64,000 bases of DNA, taken from assembly GCA_026398595.1 (NCBI GenBank), contig JAPLSO010000058.1, positions 36,227-100,226 on the forward strand, written 5' to 3'. Shown here piece by piece: positions 13,290-20,109 of the stretch. The translations under genes and the position numbers were made by a program. The notes beneath the pieces were generated by a model. That model worked only from the letters and a program-made list of their open reading frames with translations. It made no database searches and was not told the origin of the DNA. The first letter of the stretch is position 1. Each line of letters opens with the position of its first letter. The stretch comes from Spirochaetota bacterium (lineage in GTDB: Bacteria > Spirochaetota > Spirochaetia > Treponematales > Rectinemataceae).

Positions 13290-14477
13290 TCACCGGATCG
13301 CCTTCCGGAGAGCCTCCACTTTATCCGTCGCCTCCCAGGAGAAACCCTCGCGGCCGAAATGGCCATAGGCGGCCGTAGCCTTGTAGATCGGGTTTTTGAG
13401 GCGTAAAGTTTCGATGATTCCGTGGGGAGTGAGGTCGAAAACCTTGGTCACCGCCTTAGCGATGGCATCCTCCTCGACCTTGGCCGTGCCGAAGGTGTCG
13501 ACAAAGACAGAGACAGGCTCGGGCACGCCGATGGCGTAGGCGAGCTGGAGTTCGCAGCGTTCGGCGAGGCCCGCCGCGACAATGTTCTTGGCGATATAGC
13601 GCGCCATGTAGGCCGCCGAGCGATCCACCTTCGAGGGATCCTTTCCGGAAAAAGCGCCACCTCCGTGCCTGCCCATACCGCCATAGCTGTCCACGATTAT
13701 CTTGCGGCCGGTCAGGCCGGAGTCGCACGCCGGGCCGCCGATCACGAAGCGCCCTGTCGGGTTGATGAAGTAGACGGTATTCGCGTCGAGCAGTTCGGTC
13801 GGCTCGAGCATGGGCTTTATAATCCTCTCGATGAGGGTCTCCCTGATCTCGTCGTATCCGAGGAGAGCGCCCCCAGCTTTCTTCTCGTCATGCTGATGGG
13901 AGAGAACGACGGCGCTGATCCTGACCGGCTTGTGCTCGTTGTATTCCACGGTCACCTGGCTCTTGGCGTCGGGCCTCAGCCAGGTGATCTCCTTGGCCTT
14001 GCGCGCCCGTGCCGCTTCCTTGAGGATCTTGTGCGCGAGGATGATAGGAGCGGGCATGAGTTCGGGGGTTTCGTCGCAGGCGAAACCGAACATCATCCCC
14101 TGGTCGCCCGCGCCCTGCCGGCCTTCGTATTCCTTGAGCCCGTGGCCATCGACCCCCTGGGCAATGTCCGGTGACTGGGCATGGATGGCGTTGAGGACGG
14201 CCATGGAATTACAATCCAGGCCGTAGGCCGGGTCGTCGTACCCTATGTCTTTCACGACGCTCCTGACGAGCTTCTGGATGTCGACATAGGTGTGGGTCGT
14301 GATCTCGCCCCCCACGAGGACGAGGCCCATGGTCGCGAAACACTCGCAGGCCACTCGGCTGTGCCTGTCTTTGTCGAGACAGGCGTCCAGGACAGCGTCG
14401 GATACCTGATCGCAGAGCTTGTCGGGGTGGCCTTCGGAGACGGATTCTGAGGTGAATGGTCGCAGACTGATGGACAT
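13290..14477 (-). CDS. metK: S-adenosylmethionine synthetase
   Basis: 395 residues, the usual length. It makes S-adenosylmethionine from methionine and ATP in the cytoplasm. The N-terminal signature [15 protein letters not shown], the [13 protein letters not shown] hexapeptide region, and [18 protein letters not shown] (P-loop-like signature 2) are all present. The ORF track extends upstream to 14516, but the SD-like AGAGGGG sits just before ATG 14477, which gives the standard MetK start. That ribosome-binding site lies inside a SAM-II riboswitch, so the product likely represses its own synthesis. It is convergent with pmbA and downstream of the rnf operon terminator. Confidence 0.97.
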
Positions 14478-14480
14478 AAA

Positions 14481-14540
14481 ACCCCTCTTTAGCGTGAATT
14501 TCTTACCCGCCCGCAATTCGGCTAACTCGGCGGGATCGTC
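14481..14540 (-). ncRNA. SAM-II riboswitch in the metK leader
   Basis: Read on the minus strand, the leader has a P1 helix CCCGCC/GGCGGG (14534-14529 with 14511-14506). It encloses the loop GAGTTAGCCGAATTGC, very close to the loop of the characterised SAM-II metX aptamer (GAUUUAACCGUAUUGC, recalled from memory). Next come AAGAAAT and the invariant ACGCTAAAG box. Loop TTAGC can pair with GCTAA as the pseudoknot helix, next to the AGAGGGG Shine-Dalgarno. SAM-II RNAs bind S-adenosylmethionine and hide the ribosome-binding site, and control of metK fits this. A covariance search with the Rfam SAM-II model would settle it. Confidence 0.86.
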
Positions 14541-14579
14541 CGGAAGCGGAAGTCTTCCTCTCGATCGGCTTTAGCGTTA

Positions 14580-14608
14580 ATTTTATCGATCCACCTGCAA
14601 ATAGTCAA
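14580..14608 (-). promoter_or_regulatory. Candidate metK promoter
   Basis: Minus strand: TTGACT (14603-14608), 17 bp, TAAAAT (14580-14585). A start near 14573 would give a leader of about 95 nt that contains the whole SAM-II aptamer. The same bases resemble part of a second SAM-II copy (see findings), so the assignment is not certain. Confidence 0.5.
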
Positions 14609-14892: not shown

Positions 14893-15735
14893 TTATGCCA
14901 TTATCGGCACTTTCTTCTTCTCTCCCATCACATCGGTTTCGATCAGCTTGTACGCGTGCGTCGGGCACTTCTGGACACAGATCCCGCAGGATGTGCATTT
15001 GGTATAGTCGGTGACGGGGATCCCGTTGACCATGGTTATGCAGTTCTCGGGGCAGGACTTAACGCAGATCTCGCACTTGATGCAGCCCGTCTTGCAGGAC
15101 TTGGCCACGCTGGCTTTCACGACGCTCCGGTTGGAGCAGAGAACGATCGAACCCTGATTGCCTCGGGGGACGAGGGTGAAGAGTTTCTGCGGGCACTCCT
15201 CGGCGCAAAGGCCGCAGCCCGTACAATTGTCGTAGTCGACATGAGGCAGGCCGTCATCGCTCATGGAGAGGGCATCGAACTTGCAGACGGCGGCGCAGTC
15301 GCCCATGCCTTGGCAGCCCCAGGCGCAGATCTTGATGCCGCCGGAGGAGAGCTTGGCGGCTCGGCAGGTTCGAATGCCCACATAGTCGCCCTTGGAAACC
15401 GCCAGGTCCTTGCCCCCCTGGCAGAGGAGGACGGACACGAGGTCCTCGGCCACCGCCGAGACGCCCATGATCTTGGACACGGCCTCGGCCGTGGATGCGC
15501 CGCCGGCCGAACACTTCGTGGTGGGGGCGCGGCCTGTCGCTACCGCGGTCGCGTAGCCGTCGCAGCCCGGAAACCCGCAGCCGCCGCAGTTGGCGCCGGG
15601 CAGGACGGAGCGGACTTCGTCTATTTTGGGGTCACGCTCAATCTTGAATTTCTTCTCGAATAAACCCAAAGCCACGCCGATGACGAAGGCAAGGAGGCCT
15701 GAGAATCCGATCGTTATCAGTATCGTGATGATCAT
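14893..15735 (-). CDS. rnfB: Rnf complex subunit RnfB (multi-cluster ferredoxin subunit)
   Basis: 280 residues. An N-terminal membrane anchor (residues 5-25) is followed by the Fe-S domain GANCGGCGFPGCDGYA. Several ferredoxin-type cysteine motifs follow: CQGMGDCAAVC, CTGCGLCAEECP, CIKCEICVKSCP and CTSCGICVQKCP. RnfB takes electrons from reduced ferredoxin and passes them into the complex, which pumps Na+ or H+ while reducing NAD+. It is the last gene of rnfCDGEAB, ten bases after rnfA, and is followed by a terminator. Confidence 0.95.
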   Translation of the reverse strand: MIITILITIGFSGLLAFVIGVALGLFEKKFKIERDPKIDEVRSVLPGANCGGCGFPGCDGYATAVATGRAPTTKCSAGGASTAEAVSKIMGVSAVAEDLVSVLLCQGGKDLAVSKGDYVGIRTCRAAKLSSGGIKICAWGCQGMGDCAAVCKFDALSMSDDGLPHVDYDNCTGCGLCAEECPQKLFTLVPRGNQGSIVLCSNRSVVKASVAKSCKTGCIKCEICVKSCPENCITMVNGIPVTDYTKCTSCGICVQKCPTHAYKLIETDVMGEKKKVPIMA

Positions 15736-15745
15736 ACAGCCTCCT

Positions 15746-16321
15746 TTATTTGATCAGACCGGCGAAACCCATGAAGGCCATGCCGATCAGGCTCGAGGAT
15801 ATGAAAAGGATGGGCGTACCCTGGAGGAACTTCGGCACCGGACTGGTCTTCATCCTCTCGCGCACACCCGCGAGCAGTATCATCGCCAGGAGGTAGCCCA
15901 GCGAAACACCGACGGCGTACACAATGGATTGAATGAAGGTGTAGTTGAGCGAGATGTTCTCGAAAACCACGGCCGAGATCGCGCAGTTCGTCGTGATCAG
16001 GGGAAGGTAGATGCCCATGGCCGCGTAGAGGCCCGGCACGTTCTTCTTCAGGTAGAATTCAACGAGTTGCACAAGGCTCGCTACCACGAGGATGAATATG
16101 ACGATCTCGAGGAATTCGATATGAAGGGGCGCGAGCACATAGTGGTAGAGCGGCCAGGTCGCGGCGGTGGCGAGCACGGTCACGAAAGTGACGGCAGTGC
16201 CCATGCCGATCGACTGGCCGACGTCGTTCGTCATTCCGATGTAGGAGCAGAGCGCGATGAACCGCATCAGGATGATGTTGTTGATGAGCAGGCTGACGAT
16301 AAAGATTTTCATCAAATCCAT
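15746..16321 (-). CDS. rnfA: Rnf complex membrane subunit RnfA
   Basis: 191 residues with about six hydrophobic helices and the family pattern LLINNIILMRFIALCSYIG at the N-terminus. RnfA and RnfE are related inner-membrane subunits with opposite topology that form the ion-translocating core and hold a [2Fe-2S] cluster between conserved cysteines. The start overlaps the rnfE stop by one base, so it belongs to the same transcript. Confidence 0.95.
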   Translation of the reverse strand: MDLMKIFIVSLLINNIILMRFIALCSYIGMTNDVGQSIGMGTAVTFVTVLATAATWPLYHYVLAPLHIEFLEIVIFILVVASLVQLVEFYLKKNVPGLYAAMGIYLPLITTNCAISAVVFENISLNYTFIQSIVYAVGVSLGYLLAMILLAGVRERMKTSPVPKFLQGTPILFISSSLIGMAFMGFAGLIK

Positions 16322-16944
16322 TATGCGCTCTCCTTTGCGTCGGCTTTCCTGTTCATTCTGCCTTTCATCCAGATATTGAAGGCCATGAATAAGCCGAATA
16401 TGAGGAATCCGCCCGGGGGAAGGATGAAGAACAGGATCGGCTGGTAGGAAGCGGGCATCACCTGGATTCCCGCGAAGGTCCCGTTGCCGAGGACCTCGCG
16501 TATAGCGGCCATGCCCACCAGTACCCAGGTGTAGCCGAGGCCCATGCCGAAAGAGTCGAATATGGCGGGCAGAACTTTCTGATGGTACGAGAAAGCCTCG
16601 ACGCGGCCCATGATGATGCAGTTGACGACGATGAGGGGGATGAAGACGCCCATGCTCTTGGAGAGTTCGGGAAGATAGGCTTTCATCGACAGGTCTACGA
16701 TCGTCGTGAAGGCACCGATGATGATGAGAAAGATCGGCATGCGTACCGAGTTGGGGATCACATTCCTGAACGCCGAGATGATGATTTCCGAGAAGAGCAG
16801 TACGAAAGTCATCGCCACGCCCATGCCGATTCCATTCTGGACATTGGATGTCACGGCCATGGAGGAGCAGAGGCCAATCATCAAAACAAGAAGCGGGTTG
16901 TCGAATACCAACCCCGCCTTGAAGACTTTCCAGATGTTTTTCAT
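16321..16944 (-). CDS. rnfE: Rnf complex membrane subunit RnfE
   Basis: 207 residues, about six membrane helices. The N-terminus, NPLLVLMIGLCSSMAVT, and the later VVNCIIMGRVEAF are typical of RnfE/NqrD. It pairs with RnfA in the membrane core of the ferredoxin:NAD+ oxidoreductase. It starts one base after the rnfG stop, so the two are tightly coupled. Operon order C-D-G-E-A-B is the common bacterial Rnf order. Confidence 0.95.
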   Translation of the reverse strand: MKNIWKVFKAGLVFDNPLLVLMIGLCSSMAVTSNVQNGIGMGVAMTFVLLFSEIIISAFRNVIPNSVRMPIFLIIIGAFTTIVDLSMKAYLPELSKSMGVFIPLIVVNCIIMGRVEAFSYHQKVLPAIFDSFGMGLGYTWVLVGMAAIREVLGNGTFAGIQVMPASYQPILFFILPPGGFLIFGLFMAFNIWMKGRMNRKADAKESA

Positions 16945-16945
16945 G

Positions 16946-17602
16946 TCACTTTCCTCCCGTTGTGCCGTTGTCGGCCGGGGTCGTTGTGCCCTGGCTCGCA
17001 GGAGGAGAGCCGGCCGTCGTCGAGTTTTCCAGCCAAGCCGCCGCCGCGTCGCCCGCGGCCTTGACGATGCGCGTCAAGGATTTCGAGGTAATGGTCGCCG
17101 CGGTGATGGCGGCGACATCTTTCTTGACTTCGAACGTGTCCGTTAGGAATTTGCCGGTGAACTGACCGGGGAAGGTGATCTTCTCGGTCTTCTTGACGTA
17201 ATAGGACGCGTTCTTGGCGTTCATGCCCAATCCGGCCGTATCGTTGAGTTCTAAAACCCTCACGCCCTCGATGCTTCTGGTGAGGCCAACGCCGACCAGA
17301 AGTCTGGCCGTGCCGCCGTAGCTGGCGCCGGTCGCCTTGATCGCCACGCCGAGGTTGGCCTGGCTGGATTTAACAAGGAAGGCCTTTTCGAACTTCACGC
17401 CTTCGGCGGGCGGCTTAAACGTGGAAGTAATGTCCTCGAACGACGCCGCTTCGGGGAAAATCTCCTTCAGTGAATCGTTCAAGGCTTTCTGGTCCTGCGT
17501 CGCTATCGCCTCTTCCGTCAAAGAATAGACAAAGGCAAGGCTGGCGCAGTTGACCACGGCGAAGAGCGCGAGGATCACGCCCAATCTGACGTTTCCTTTC
17601 AT
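16946..17602 (-). CDS. rnfG: Rnf complex subunit RnfG (covalent FMN protein)
   Basis: 218 residues: one N-terminal membrane helix (LGVILALFAVVNCASLAFVY), then a periplasmic FMN-binding domain. The flavinylation motif, usually SGATxTS, reads TAATITSKS here, with the acceptor threonine kept. A low-complexity Gly/Thr/Ser tail follows. RnfG carries electrons on the outer face. Its start overlaps the rnfD stop by four bases. Confidence 0.93.
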   Translation of the reverse strand: MKGNVRLGVILALFAVVNCASLAFVYSLTEEAIATQDQKALNDSLKEIFPEAASFEDITSTFKPPAEGVKFEKAFLVKSSQANLGVAIKATGASYGGTARLLVGVGLTRSIEGVRVLELNDTAGLGMNAKNASYYVKKTEKITFPGQFTGKFLTDTFEVKKDVAAITAATITSKSLTRIVKAAGDAAAAWLENSTTAGSPPASQGTTTPADNGTTGGK

Positions 17603-18609
17603 TTCGCCGCCTCCTTGGGAACCTTGGCCGGCTTGGCCGGAGGAACGAAGCCGTATTTTCTCACCCTGAGCTTGTTGAGATAGGGCGTCATGATGTTCAT
17701 GATGAGGATGGCATAGGTCACCCCCTCGGGGAATCCGCCAAACTTACGGATGATGACGGCGATCAAGCCTATGCCCGCCCCGTAGATGGCCATGCCTGCG
17801 GGGGTCATGGGTCGTGTCGAATAATCAGTCGCCATGAAGAAGGCGCCGAATACCAGGCCTCCCGAGAGGATGGTAAAAAGGGGGTTCATTCCGAACAGCC
17901 AGGAGAAGAGGAAGGCCGAAGTCAGGACAGCGGCCGGGACGATCCACTGCACAATGCCGATAGCGATGAGGAAGAGTCCGCCCACGAGGATGAGGAGTAT
18001 GGAACTCTCGCCCAGGGAACCCGAGCGATAACCCATGAAAAGCTGGCGGAAGAAAGCGTCCGTGTCGGAGGCGCCGAAGTAGCTGGCCACGTCCTTAAGG
18101 CTCCCTCCCTGCTTGATTAAAGCCAAGGGGGTCGCCGTGCTAGCCGCGTCGGTTGCCAAAGCCAAGCCGTTGGGCATCGACCAGGTCGTCATGGCGGCTG
18201 GGAAGCTCATAAGGAGGAAGGCTCGGCCGATCAAGGCCGGGTTGAAGGGGTTGGCGCCAAGACCCCCGAAGAACTCCTTGGCAACGACGATCGCGAAGAC
18301 GGCACCGAGGGCGGCCATCCACACGGGTGTCTTGGGCGGAAGGATGAGGGCAAGGAGAAGCCCCGTCACTACGGCGGAGAAATCCCCCACCGTCGTTGAG
18401 GCCTTGATGATCTTGCGGAAGAGATATTCGGCGGCGACGGCCGAGGCGACCGTGACCAGGATAAGAGCGAGGGCTGAGATGCCATACAGGTAGACGCCGT
18501 AGCCCACGGCAGGAATCAGCGCTATCACCACGGACAGCATCAGCGTTGGCGTGGTCACCGGCGTGAAGGAGTGGGGGCTCGAAGCGAGCAGCGGGGTTTT
18601 AGCGGGCAT
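17599..18609 (-). CDS. rnfD: Rnf complex membrane subunit RnfD
   Basis: 336 residues, many hydrophobic helices; RnfD/NqrB family. The motif STATPLALIKQ contains the threonine that normally carries covalent FMN. FNPALIGRAFLLMSFP and GGLVFGAFFMATDYSTRP are family blocks. It forms the ion channel with RnfA and RnfE. It overlaps the rnfC stop by eleven bases and has a Lys/Pro/Ala-rich C-terminus. Confidence 0.95.
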   Translation of the reverse strand: MPAKTPLLASSPHSFTPVTTPTLMLSVVIALIPAVGYGVYLYGISALALILVTVASAVAAEYLFRKIIKASTTVGDFSAVVTGLLLALILPPKTPVWMAALGAVFAIVVAKEFFGGLGANPFNPALIGRAFLLMSFPAAMTTWSMPNGLALATDAASTATPLALIKQGGSLKDVASYFGASDTDAFFRQLFMGYRSGSLGESSILLILVGGLFLIAIGIVQWIVPAAVLTSAFLFSWLFGMNPLFTILSGGLVFGAFFMATDYSTRPMTPAGMAIYGAGIGLIAVIIRKFGGFPEGVTYAILIMNIMTPYLNKLRVRKYGFVPPAKPAKVPKEAAK

Positions 18610-19981
18610 TCTGGGCCTCCTTTTGCTTCATGGAGCGCAATACCTGCTTCCCGACCCTGAAACGCTGGACGAGGTTCCGTCGGGCTGGACAGACAAAGGA
18701 GCAGGTGCCGCACTCGATGCAGTCGAGAAGGCCAATCGCCTCAGCTTCCTTGTAATCGCCGTTCTCGATGGCGACCGAGAGGAGGGCGGGGGAAAGCCTG
18801 CAGGAGCAGGCGCGTATGCAGCGACCGCAGCGTATGCAGGTCTCTTCCGCGTAATGCCGTGCTTCTTCCTCGCCGAGGAGGAGGATCCCCGAGCTGTTCT
18901 TCTGTATTGGGATCTGGTAGGAGGGCACGGCGACTCCCATCATGGGTCCGCCGAAGATGATGCCCTTCAGGGCTTCATCATCCACCTTAGCCAAGCCAGC
19001 CTCGACGATATCGGCCACGCAAGCTCCTATTGGGACGATTACGTTCGTCGGCTTCGTGCAGGCGCTGCCGGTGACGGTCAGGCCCCGCTCTATAAGCGGC
19101 TTGCCCTCCCTGAAGGCTTCCACCATGGCGCAAAGCGTGCCGATATTCTGGACCACGCAGCCTACGTCCATGGGAAGACCGCCCGAGGGGACTTCCCTGC
19201 CCGTGATCGCCGTGATCAGCATCTTCTCGCCGCCCTGCGGATACTTGGTCTTGAGGACCTGGACGCGGATCTTCATCCCCGCCCTGGTGCGGGGACTGGC
19301 CGCTATCGCCTTCTCGAGGAGGGGGATGGCGTCGACCTTGTTATCCTCCACGGCAATTATGCCCTCGGACGCGCTCACGATCTTCATCGTGATGGCGACA
19401 CCCTCGACAACGTCATCGGCTCGCTCGATCATCGTGCGGCCATCGATGGTGAGGAAAGGTTCGCACTCCGCCCCATTGGCTATGACGCAGGTGATAGGCT
19501 TGGAAGGGGCCAGTTTGACATGGGTCGGGAAGCCCGCGCCTCCCATACCCACGATGCCCGCCGCCCTAACCCGTGCCAGTGCCTCTTCCTTCGTGCAGGT
19601 GAAGGCGTCCAGCGGAGGCATGAAGTCGATCAGATCCTCAGGGGCCGGGGCCAATTCGCCTTCGGCAAGAGGAGGAAAGGCTTCAATGACGATGCAGAGG
19701 CCCTCAAGGTTATTCGACTGCATCCGGGGCTCGATCTTCTTGACGATGCCTGCCATGGAGGCATGGACCGGTACCGTCATCCTGCCCTCGGCGTCGGCAA
19801 TCTTCTGACCGCGCTTCACCTTGTCACCCACTCTAGCCAGAGCCTGCAAAGGGGCCCCGAAGTGCTGGTTGACCGGTATGACGACCTGCTTTACTTCGAG
19901 CAGGCGTTCGACCGAAAGACCGCTCGTGCGGTCTTTTCTCTCGGGCGGATGCGCTCCGCCCCTGAAGGTCTTAATTGCCAT
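18599..19981 (-). CDS. rnfC: Rnf complex subunit RnfC (NADH-binding)
   Basis: 460 residues. It begins TFRGGAHPPERK, the usual RnfC N-terminus, has the nucleotide/FMN-binding loop GMGGAGFPTHVKL, and carries two 4Fe-4S motifs (CIRCGRCIRAC and CIECGTCSFVCP). RnfC is the cytoplasmic subunit where NAD+ is reduced. AAAGGAG lies before ATG 19981, so the 40-residue extension to 20101 in the ORF track is rejected; that stretch also holds the -10 element. First gene of the operon. Confidence 0.95.
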   Translation of the reverse strand: MAIKTFRGGAHPPERKDRTSGLSVERLLEVKQVVIPVNQHFGAPLQALARVGDKVKRGQKIADAEGRMTVPVHASMAGIVKKIEPRMQSNNLEGLCIVIEAFPPLAEGELAPAPEDLIDFMPPLDAFTCTKEEALARVRAAGIVGMGGAGFPTHVKLAPSKPITCVIANGAECEPFLTIDGRTMIERADDVVEGVAITMKIVSASEGIIAVEDNKVDAIPLLEKAIAASPRTRAGMKIRVQVLKTKYPQGGEKMLITAITGREVPSGGLPMDVGCVVQNIGTLCAMVEAFREGKPLIERGLTVTGSACTKPTNVIVPIGACVADIVEAGLAKVDDEALKGIIFGGPMMGVAVPSYQIPIQKNSSGILLLGEEEARHYAEETCIRCGRCIRACSCRLSPALLSVAIENGDYKEAEAIGLLDCIECGTCSFVCPARRNLVQRFRVGKQVLRSMKQKEAQNAR

Positions 19982-20079
19982 GGCGGAAAATTCTCCTTTC
20001 CAGGTAGGATCCGCTTTCGTACGCGCCCTGTCCGAGTCGATTATCGGGGGGTGCGAAGAATAGGTGGAAAAACGTTCCA

Positions 20080-20109
20080 ATTGTAACCACAGCTTTTCCA
20101 AGAGGTCAA
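20080..20109 (-). promoter_or_regulatory. rnf operon promoter
   Basis: Minus strand: TTGACC (20104-20109), 18 bp, TACAAT (20080-20085). It lies about 100 bp before rnfC, and the operon has no other candidate as good. Confidence 0.65.

Follow-up and report, generated by a model that had tools for sequence, protein, structure and literature searches.

A variant SAM-II element upstream of metK in Spirochaetota, probably controlling translation

We analyzed a 64,000-nt stretch from the genome of an uncultured bacterium of the Spirochaetota (hereafter, the window) and found, in the leader of its metK gene, an aptamer on the minus strand (14484-14534) with the anatomy of a SAM-II riboswitch. The leader is very probably a translational OFF riboswitch of the SAM-II type, which probably turns the gene off when SAM is plentiful, and a G at position 10 of its pocket makes the element a SAM-II variant. 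SAM-II was known from Alpha-, Beta- and Gammaproteobacteria and from Bacteroidetes (PMC2258182, PMC2704228). The present results add Spirochaetota to this range, where SAM-II would be a widely conserved regulator of SAM synthetase. Our literature search, which had subscription papers and Rfam hit lists outside its scope, returned no paper linking the SAM-II riboswitch or RF00521 with spirochaetes, and this is likely the first report of SAM-II in that phylum.

Anatomy of the metK leader

The metK gene (13290..14477, minus strand) encodes an S-adenosylmethionine synthetase of 395 aa with all three S-AdoMet synthetase domains (PF00438, PF02772 and PF02773). Read on the minus strand, its leader runs CCCGCC-GAGUUAGCCGAAUUGC-G-GGCGGG-UAAGAAAUUCAC-GCUAAAGAGGGG-UUUU-AUG, which is the layout of SAM-II: P1, a loop made of L1 and the 5' strand of P2, and then the GCUAAA-N-AGG strand. 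The two P1 strands, CCCGCC (14529..14534) and GGCGGG (14506..14511), form 6 bp around the loop GAGUUAGCCGAAUUGC (14513..14528), which corresponds to positions 8-23 of the crystal structure 2QWY. This loop of 16 nt is as long as that of the crystallised SAM-II RNA, GAUUUAACCGUAUUGC (sequence given in PMC8494917), and shares 13/16 bases with it, bearing out the near identity to the metX aptamer that had been claimed in a sequence-only reading of this DNA. L3, UAAGAAAUUCAC (14494..14505), is followed by the 3' strand of the P2 pseudoknot, GCUAAAGAGG (14484..14493, 2QWY positions 42-51), and the CGCUAAAG box lies at 14494-14487. The P2 pairs are CC/GG, UU/AA, G-C and C-G, so that the P1 hairpin leads into an H-type pseudoknot as in SAM-II.

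The GCUAAA-GAGG strand of the pseudoknot is also the Shine-Dalgarno sequence of metK: GAGGGG (14482..14487, minus strand) overlaps P2 and stands 4 nt before the AUG (14477), a spacing kept in relatives. The sequence-only reading had thus rightly recognized the core (P1, loop and box), the Shine-Dalgarno in the pseudoknot and the metK target, and its coordinates, 14481-14540, were right to within a few bases. The SAM-contacting bases of the crystal structure, U11, U21, G22, U44 and A47 (PMC3764141), are all present in the window, as are the base triples U11-U21-A45 and U12-U20-A46, and both sets are invariant in our alignment A1. CGCTAAAG occurs once more at 14569-14576, and we asked whether this copy could be one half of a tandem aptamer; the idea was rejected, as the copy lacks both P1 and loop and coincides with the predicted start of transcription.

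We then examined covariation in the two helices. Compensatory changes were observed at 6/6 P1 pairs, and 95.9% of the P1 cells were paired compared to 81.6% in shuffles (0/500 shuffles as high); sliding the P1 partner strand abolished the covariation signal. P2 received little covariation support because it hardly varies. Its base pair 18-48 was considered as a covarying pair and set aside, since the mixture of U-A, A-U and many A-G was too great for such a claim. In a single-strand fold, a model in which pseudoknots lie outside, the metK leader was no more stable than shuffles.

Model scores and distribution in spirochaetes

A whole-window Rfam search gave no match at the aptamer site, where a short query was needed. 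With a query of 241 nt, the SAM-II model RF00521 scored the leader at 19.6 bits (E 0.02) against a cut-off of 36, below the gathering score. The Rfam check that the sequence-only reading had proposed was therefore negative for the leader; the cut-off was reached by 0/14 spirochaete loci and by 2/6 non-spirochaete loci. This threshold is not diagnostic, since a Pelagibacter element whose loop is exactly the crystallised one fell under it as well, at 27.8 bits. RF00521 is an alphaproteobacterial model that expects a longer P2a and penalises a 4-nt gap, and the low score is a limit of the Rfam model. This suggests that the cut-off may hide a set of real SAM-IIs.

As an independent approach, we searched 84,980 genomes with a pattern of the bases in the SAM-II core, which matched at least 118 stretches; the 80 of these listed with titles included Pelagibacteraceae, Burkholderiales, Gammaproteobacteria and at least three records named as spirochaetes. 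From the matches, 32 non-spirochaete SAM-IIs were taken for a covariance model (R2), which gave the window element 51 bits. In a search of the 2.85-Mb genome, R2 found this site with an E-value of 1.0e-11 and no other at E<=0.01. The source pattern fits the window too, so that the test was not wholly blind as regards length. R2 also matched in 28/39 relatives.

The element was found upstream of metK or ahcY-metK in 23/24 genomes of the same family with metK (the exception being G010), which places it among methionine and SAM genes as is usual for SAM-II. The spirochaete host suspected in the sequence-only reading is supported. A second model (R1), built from 17 relatives, matched 73/294 genomes of the order at E<=0.001, including further families. 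In a phylum-wide sample it matched 36/393 genomes, 33 of them in the window's order. Several metK leaders of the order are without the element. In the metK leaders of another family, f3 (L183, L185-L189, L191 and L195), L3 contains an additional hairpin, placed between P1 and GCUAAA.

Other gene contexts were also observed. SAM-II elements lie upstream of ahcY, the gene of SAH hydrolase, at seven loci (L162, L167, L168, L170, L174, L176 and L194), and metK follows ahcY in the genomes checked (G001, G003, G004, G007 and G016). In six metK leaders (L163, L164, L166 and L171-L173), the SAM-II Shine-Dalgarno starts an ORF of 21-23 codons; metK has a second Shine-Dalgarno (e.g., AAGGAG), and between the two there is a CCUCC. 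This CCUCC could pair with either Shine-Dalgarno, making a distal switch possible. SAM-II-like elements also precede an uncharacterised protein at L179, L181, L182 and L198, whose ORFs share an SPFxGxxxGLHxP-like segment and matched nothing in Pfam and nothing above cut-off in NCBIfam. Further elements of this kind, from other families in the phylum, lie upstream of an HTH protein, with a weak likeness to AcpB/MafR regulators, or of an unknown protein (L200 and L201), and one genome (G465) holds three matches.

Position 10 of the pocket and alternative explanations

Position 10 is a G in the window (14526) in place of a reportedly invariant U; it belongs to the second shell and makes no direct contact with SAM. 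We observed U in 110/110 non-spirochaete matches, and G (GAGUU for GAUUU) in most metK leaders of the family, the window's subclade included. However, two metK leaders of the same clade, L157 and L169, have U10, and we therefore did not treat U10 as defining SAM-II.

Could G10 mark a SAM-II descendant with a changed pocket, in which affinity or ligand is altered (e.g., SAH or another adenosyl compound) while fold and translational output are kept? Its prevalence in the family speaks for such a change, as does the counterpart in SAM-V, where the equivalent U forms a hydrogen bond to the U paired with the SAM adenine (PMC6061858). On the other hand, both sulfonium-sensing U and every direct SAM-contact base are kept, the target gene makes SAM, and U10 occurs in the same leader of the close relative L169, whose metK is 85% identical to that of the window. 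Since a G could donate an equivalent hydrogen bond, SAM binding would still be expected with G10 in the pocket, and we consider a changed pocket improbable. A convergent look in another SAM riboswitch class (SAM-V, SAM/SAH, SAM-III or SAM-II long-loop) is disfavoured and very unlikely. SAM/SAH and SAM-Chlorobi motifs do lie immediately before metK or metK/ahcY operons, although only in Rhodobacterales and Chlorobi in PMC2864571, and SAM-V shares a near-identical pocket and a short P2a over the Shine-Dalgarno. However, SAM-V has other P1 and P2 lengths and an additional P3, whereas the 6-bp P1, the loop length and the GCUAAA box of the window fit SAM-II. With the 241-nt query, RF00521 and a weak Guanidine-III match were the only Rfam results at E<=10, with none for SAM-V (RF01826), SAM/SAH (RF01727) or the SAM-II long loop (RF01726), whose cut-off was reached by none of the spirochaete loci tested. 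SAM-I gave no match in 39 relatives.

The conserved sequence blocks, and a hairpin (P0, described below) that is dispensable for SAM-II, would also suit a metK leader to which a repressor protein, or a regulator acting at the RNA level, binds in place of SAM. This reading has equally little to recommend it, as it is the SAM-II pocket that is conserved, in organisms ranging from Pelagibacter to spirochaetes, P1 shows covariation and the element occurs upstream of ahcY-metK too. That the resemblance is due to chance, or the contig to proteobacterial contamination, is the least credible explanation and is refuted in practice by the recurrence of the site in related genomes. The assembly is a draft, and an alphaproteobacterial-type SAM-II with a terminator (L001, 81.4 bits) was found in the relative G004 on a contig of 3.2 kb (C304), where it is a probable contaminant. 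By contrast, the window's contig exceeds 100 kb, and a regular expression for the SAM-II core, with one match in the window, had none in 96 Mb of simulated Markov sequence of the window's composition.

P0 hairpin, known systems and proposed mechanism

The P0 hairpin (14535..14565, minus strand), in which AUCG...CGAU encloses GGAAG-AC-UUCC, adjoins P1 on its upstream side in the family leaders and has the cap GGAAGUUUUCC, or a close form of it, in most members. Over ten pairs in 14 family leaders, 89.3% were paired compared to 75.2% in shuffles (0/500 as good), with changes on both sides at six pairs, in a test that favours P0 as its structure was drawn from the same 14 sequences. In the window, P0 is about 3 nt off the family register and weak (z -0.36). 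Non-spirochaete SAM-IIs are mostly without a P0-like hairpin, and many show, by eye, promoter-like -10 boxes there. The sequence-only reading had mentioned neither P0 nor G10 nor the conservation across the family and order. The spirochaetes of the order may possess their own translational SAM-II lineage on metK, with P0 stacked on P1 and G10 in one subclade, both functional in tuning SAM affinity or folding and not products of neutral drift; we advance this as a tentative suggestion, more doubtful than not. With G10 and P0, nature provides tests of how much change the pocket tolerates, and of accessory domains, in a riboswitch that ranks among the smallest.

We also compared the SAM-II variant with known systems. 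It shares with the crystallised metX-type SAM-II (RF00521 class, PDB 2QWY) the 6-bp P1, the loop, GCUAAA-N-AGG, the SAM-contact bases and a P2a of 2 bp, a form described for translational metX SAM-II and SAM-V (PMC6061858), and differs from it in G10, one additional nt in L3, the upstream P0, the metK target, the spirochaete host and the absence of a terminator. Pocket and pseudoknot topology are those of the alphaproteobacterial consensus (Rfam SAM_alpha), whose members have, in contrast to the short P2a and Shine-Dalgarno overlap of the window, a longer GC-rich P2a and mostly transcription terminators (PMC6061858, PMC2258182). In the metA SAM-II of S. meliloti, the Shine-Dalgarno GAGG likewise lies in P2 and control is translational, as proposed for the window, whereas the target is metA and a second downstream start codon and a terminator are present (PMC9373788).

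No terminator was found in the metK leader, and terminator control of metK was ruled out on that ground. The AGG of P2 serves as Shine-Dalgarno, 4-12 nt from the start codon, in nearly all metK and ahcY leaders of the family. A sigma-70-like promoter is predicted on the minus strand, with a -35 box TTGACT (14603..14608), whose TTGAC keeps its position in 13 same-family metK leaders, a 17-nt spacer and a -10 box TAAAAT (14580..14585). If used, it would place the transcription start at about 14573, some 40 nt upstream of P1. The RNA would then fold P0 first and P1 next; with SAM bound, the stabilised P2 pseudoknot would hide the Shine-Dalgarno, two G of which would pair with the CC of the loop, so that ribosomes would be unable to start metK and SAM synthesis would drop. 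The window also holds, at 14893-20101 and upstream of the metK leader, a cluster of minus-strand genes carrying domains of the Rnf electron-transport complex.
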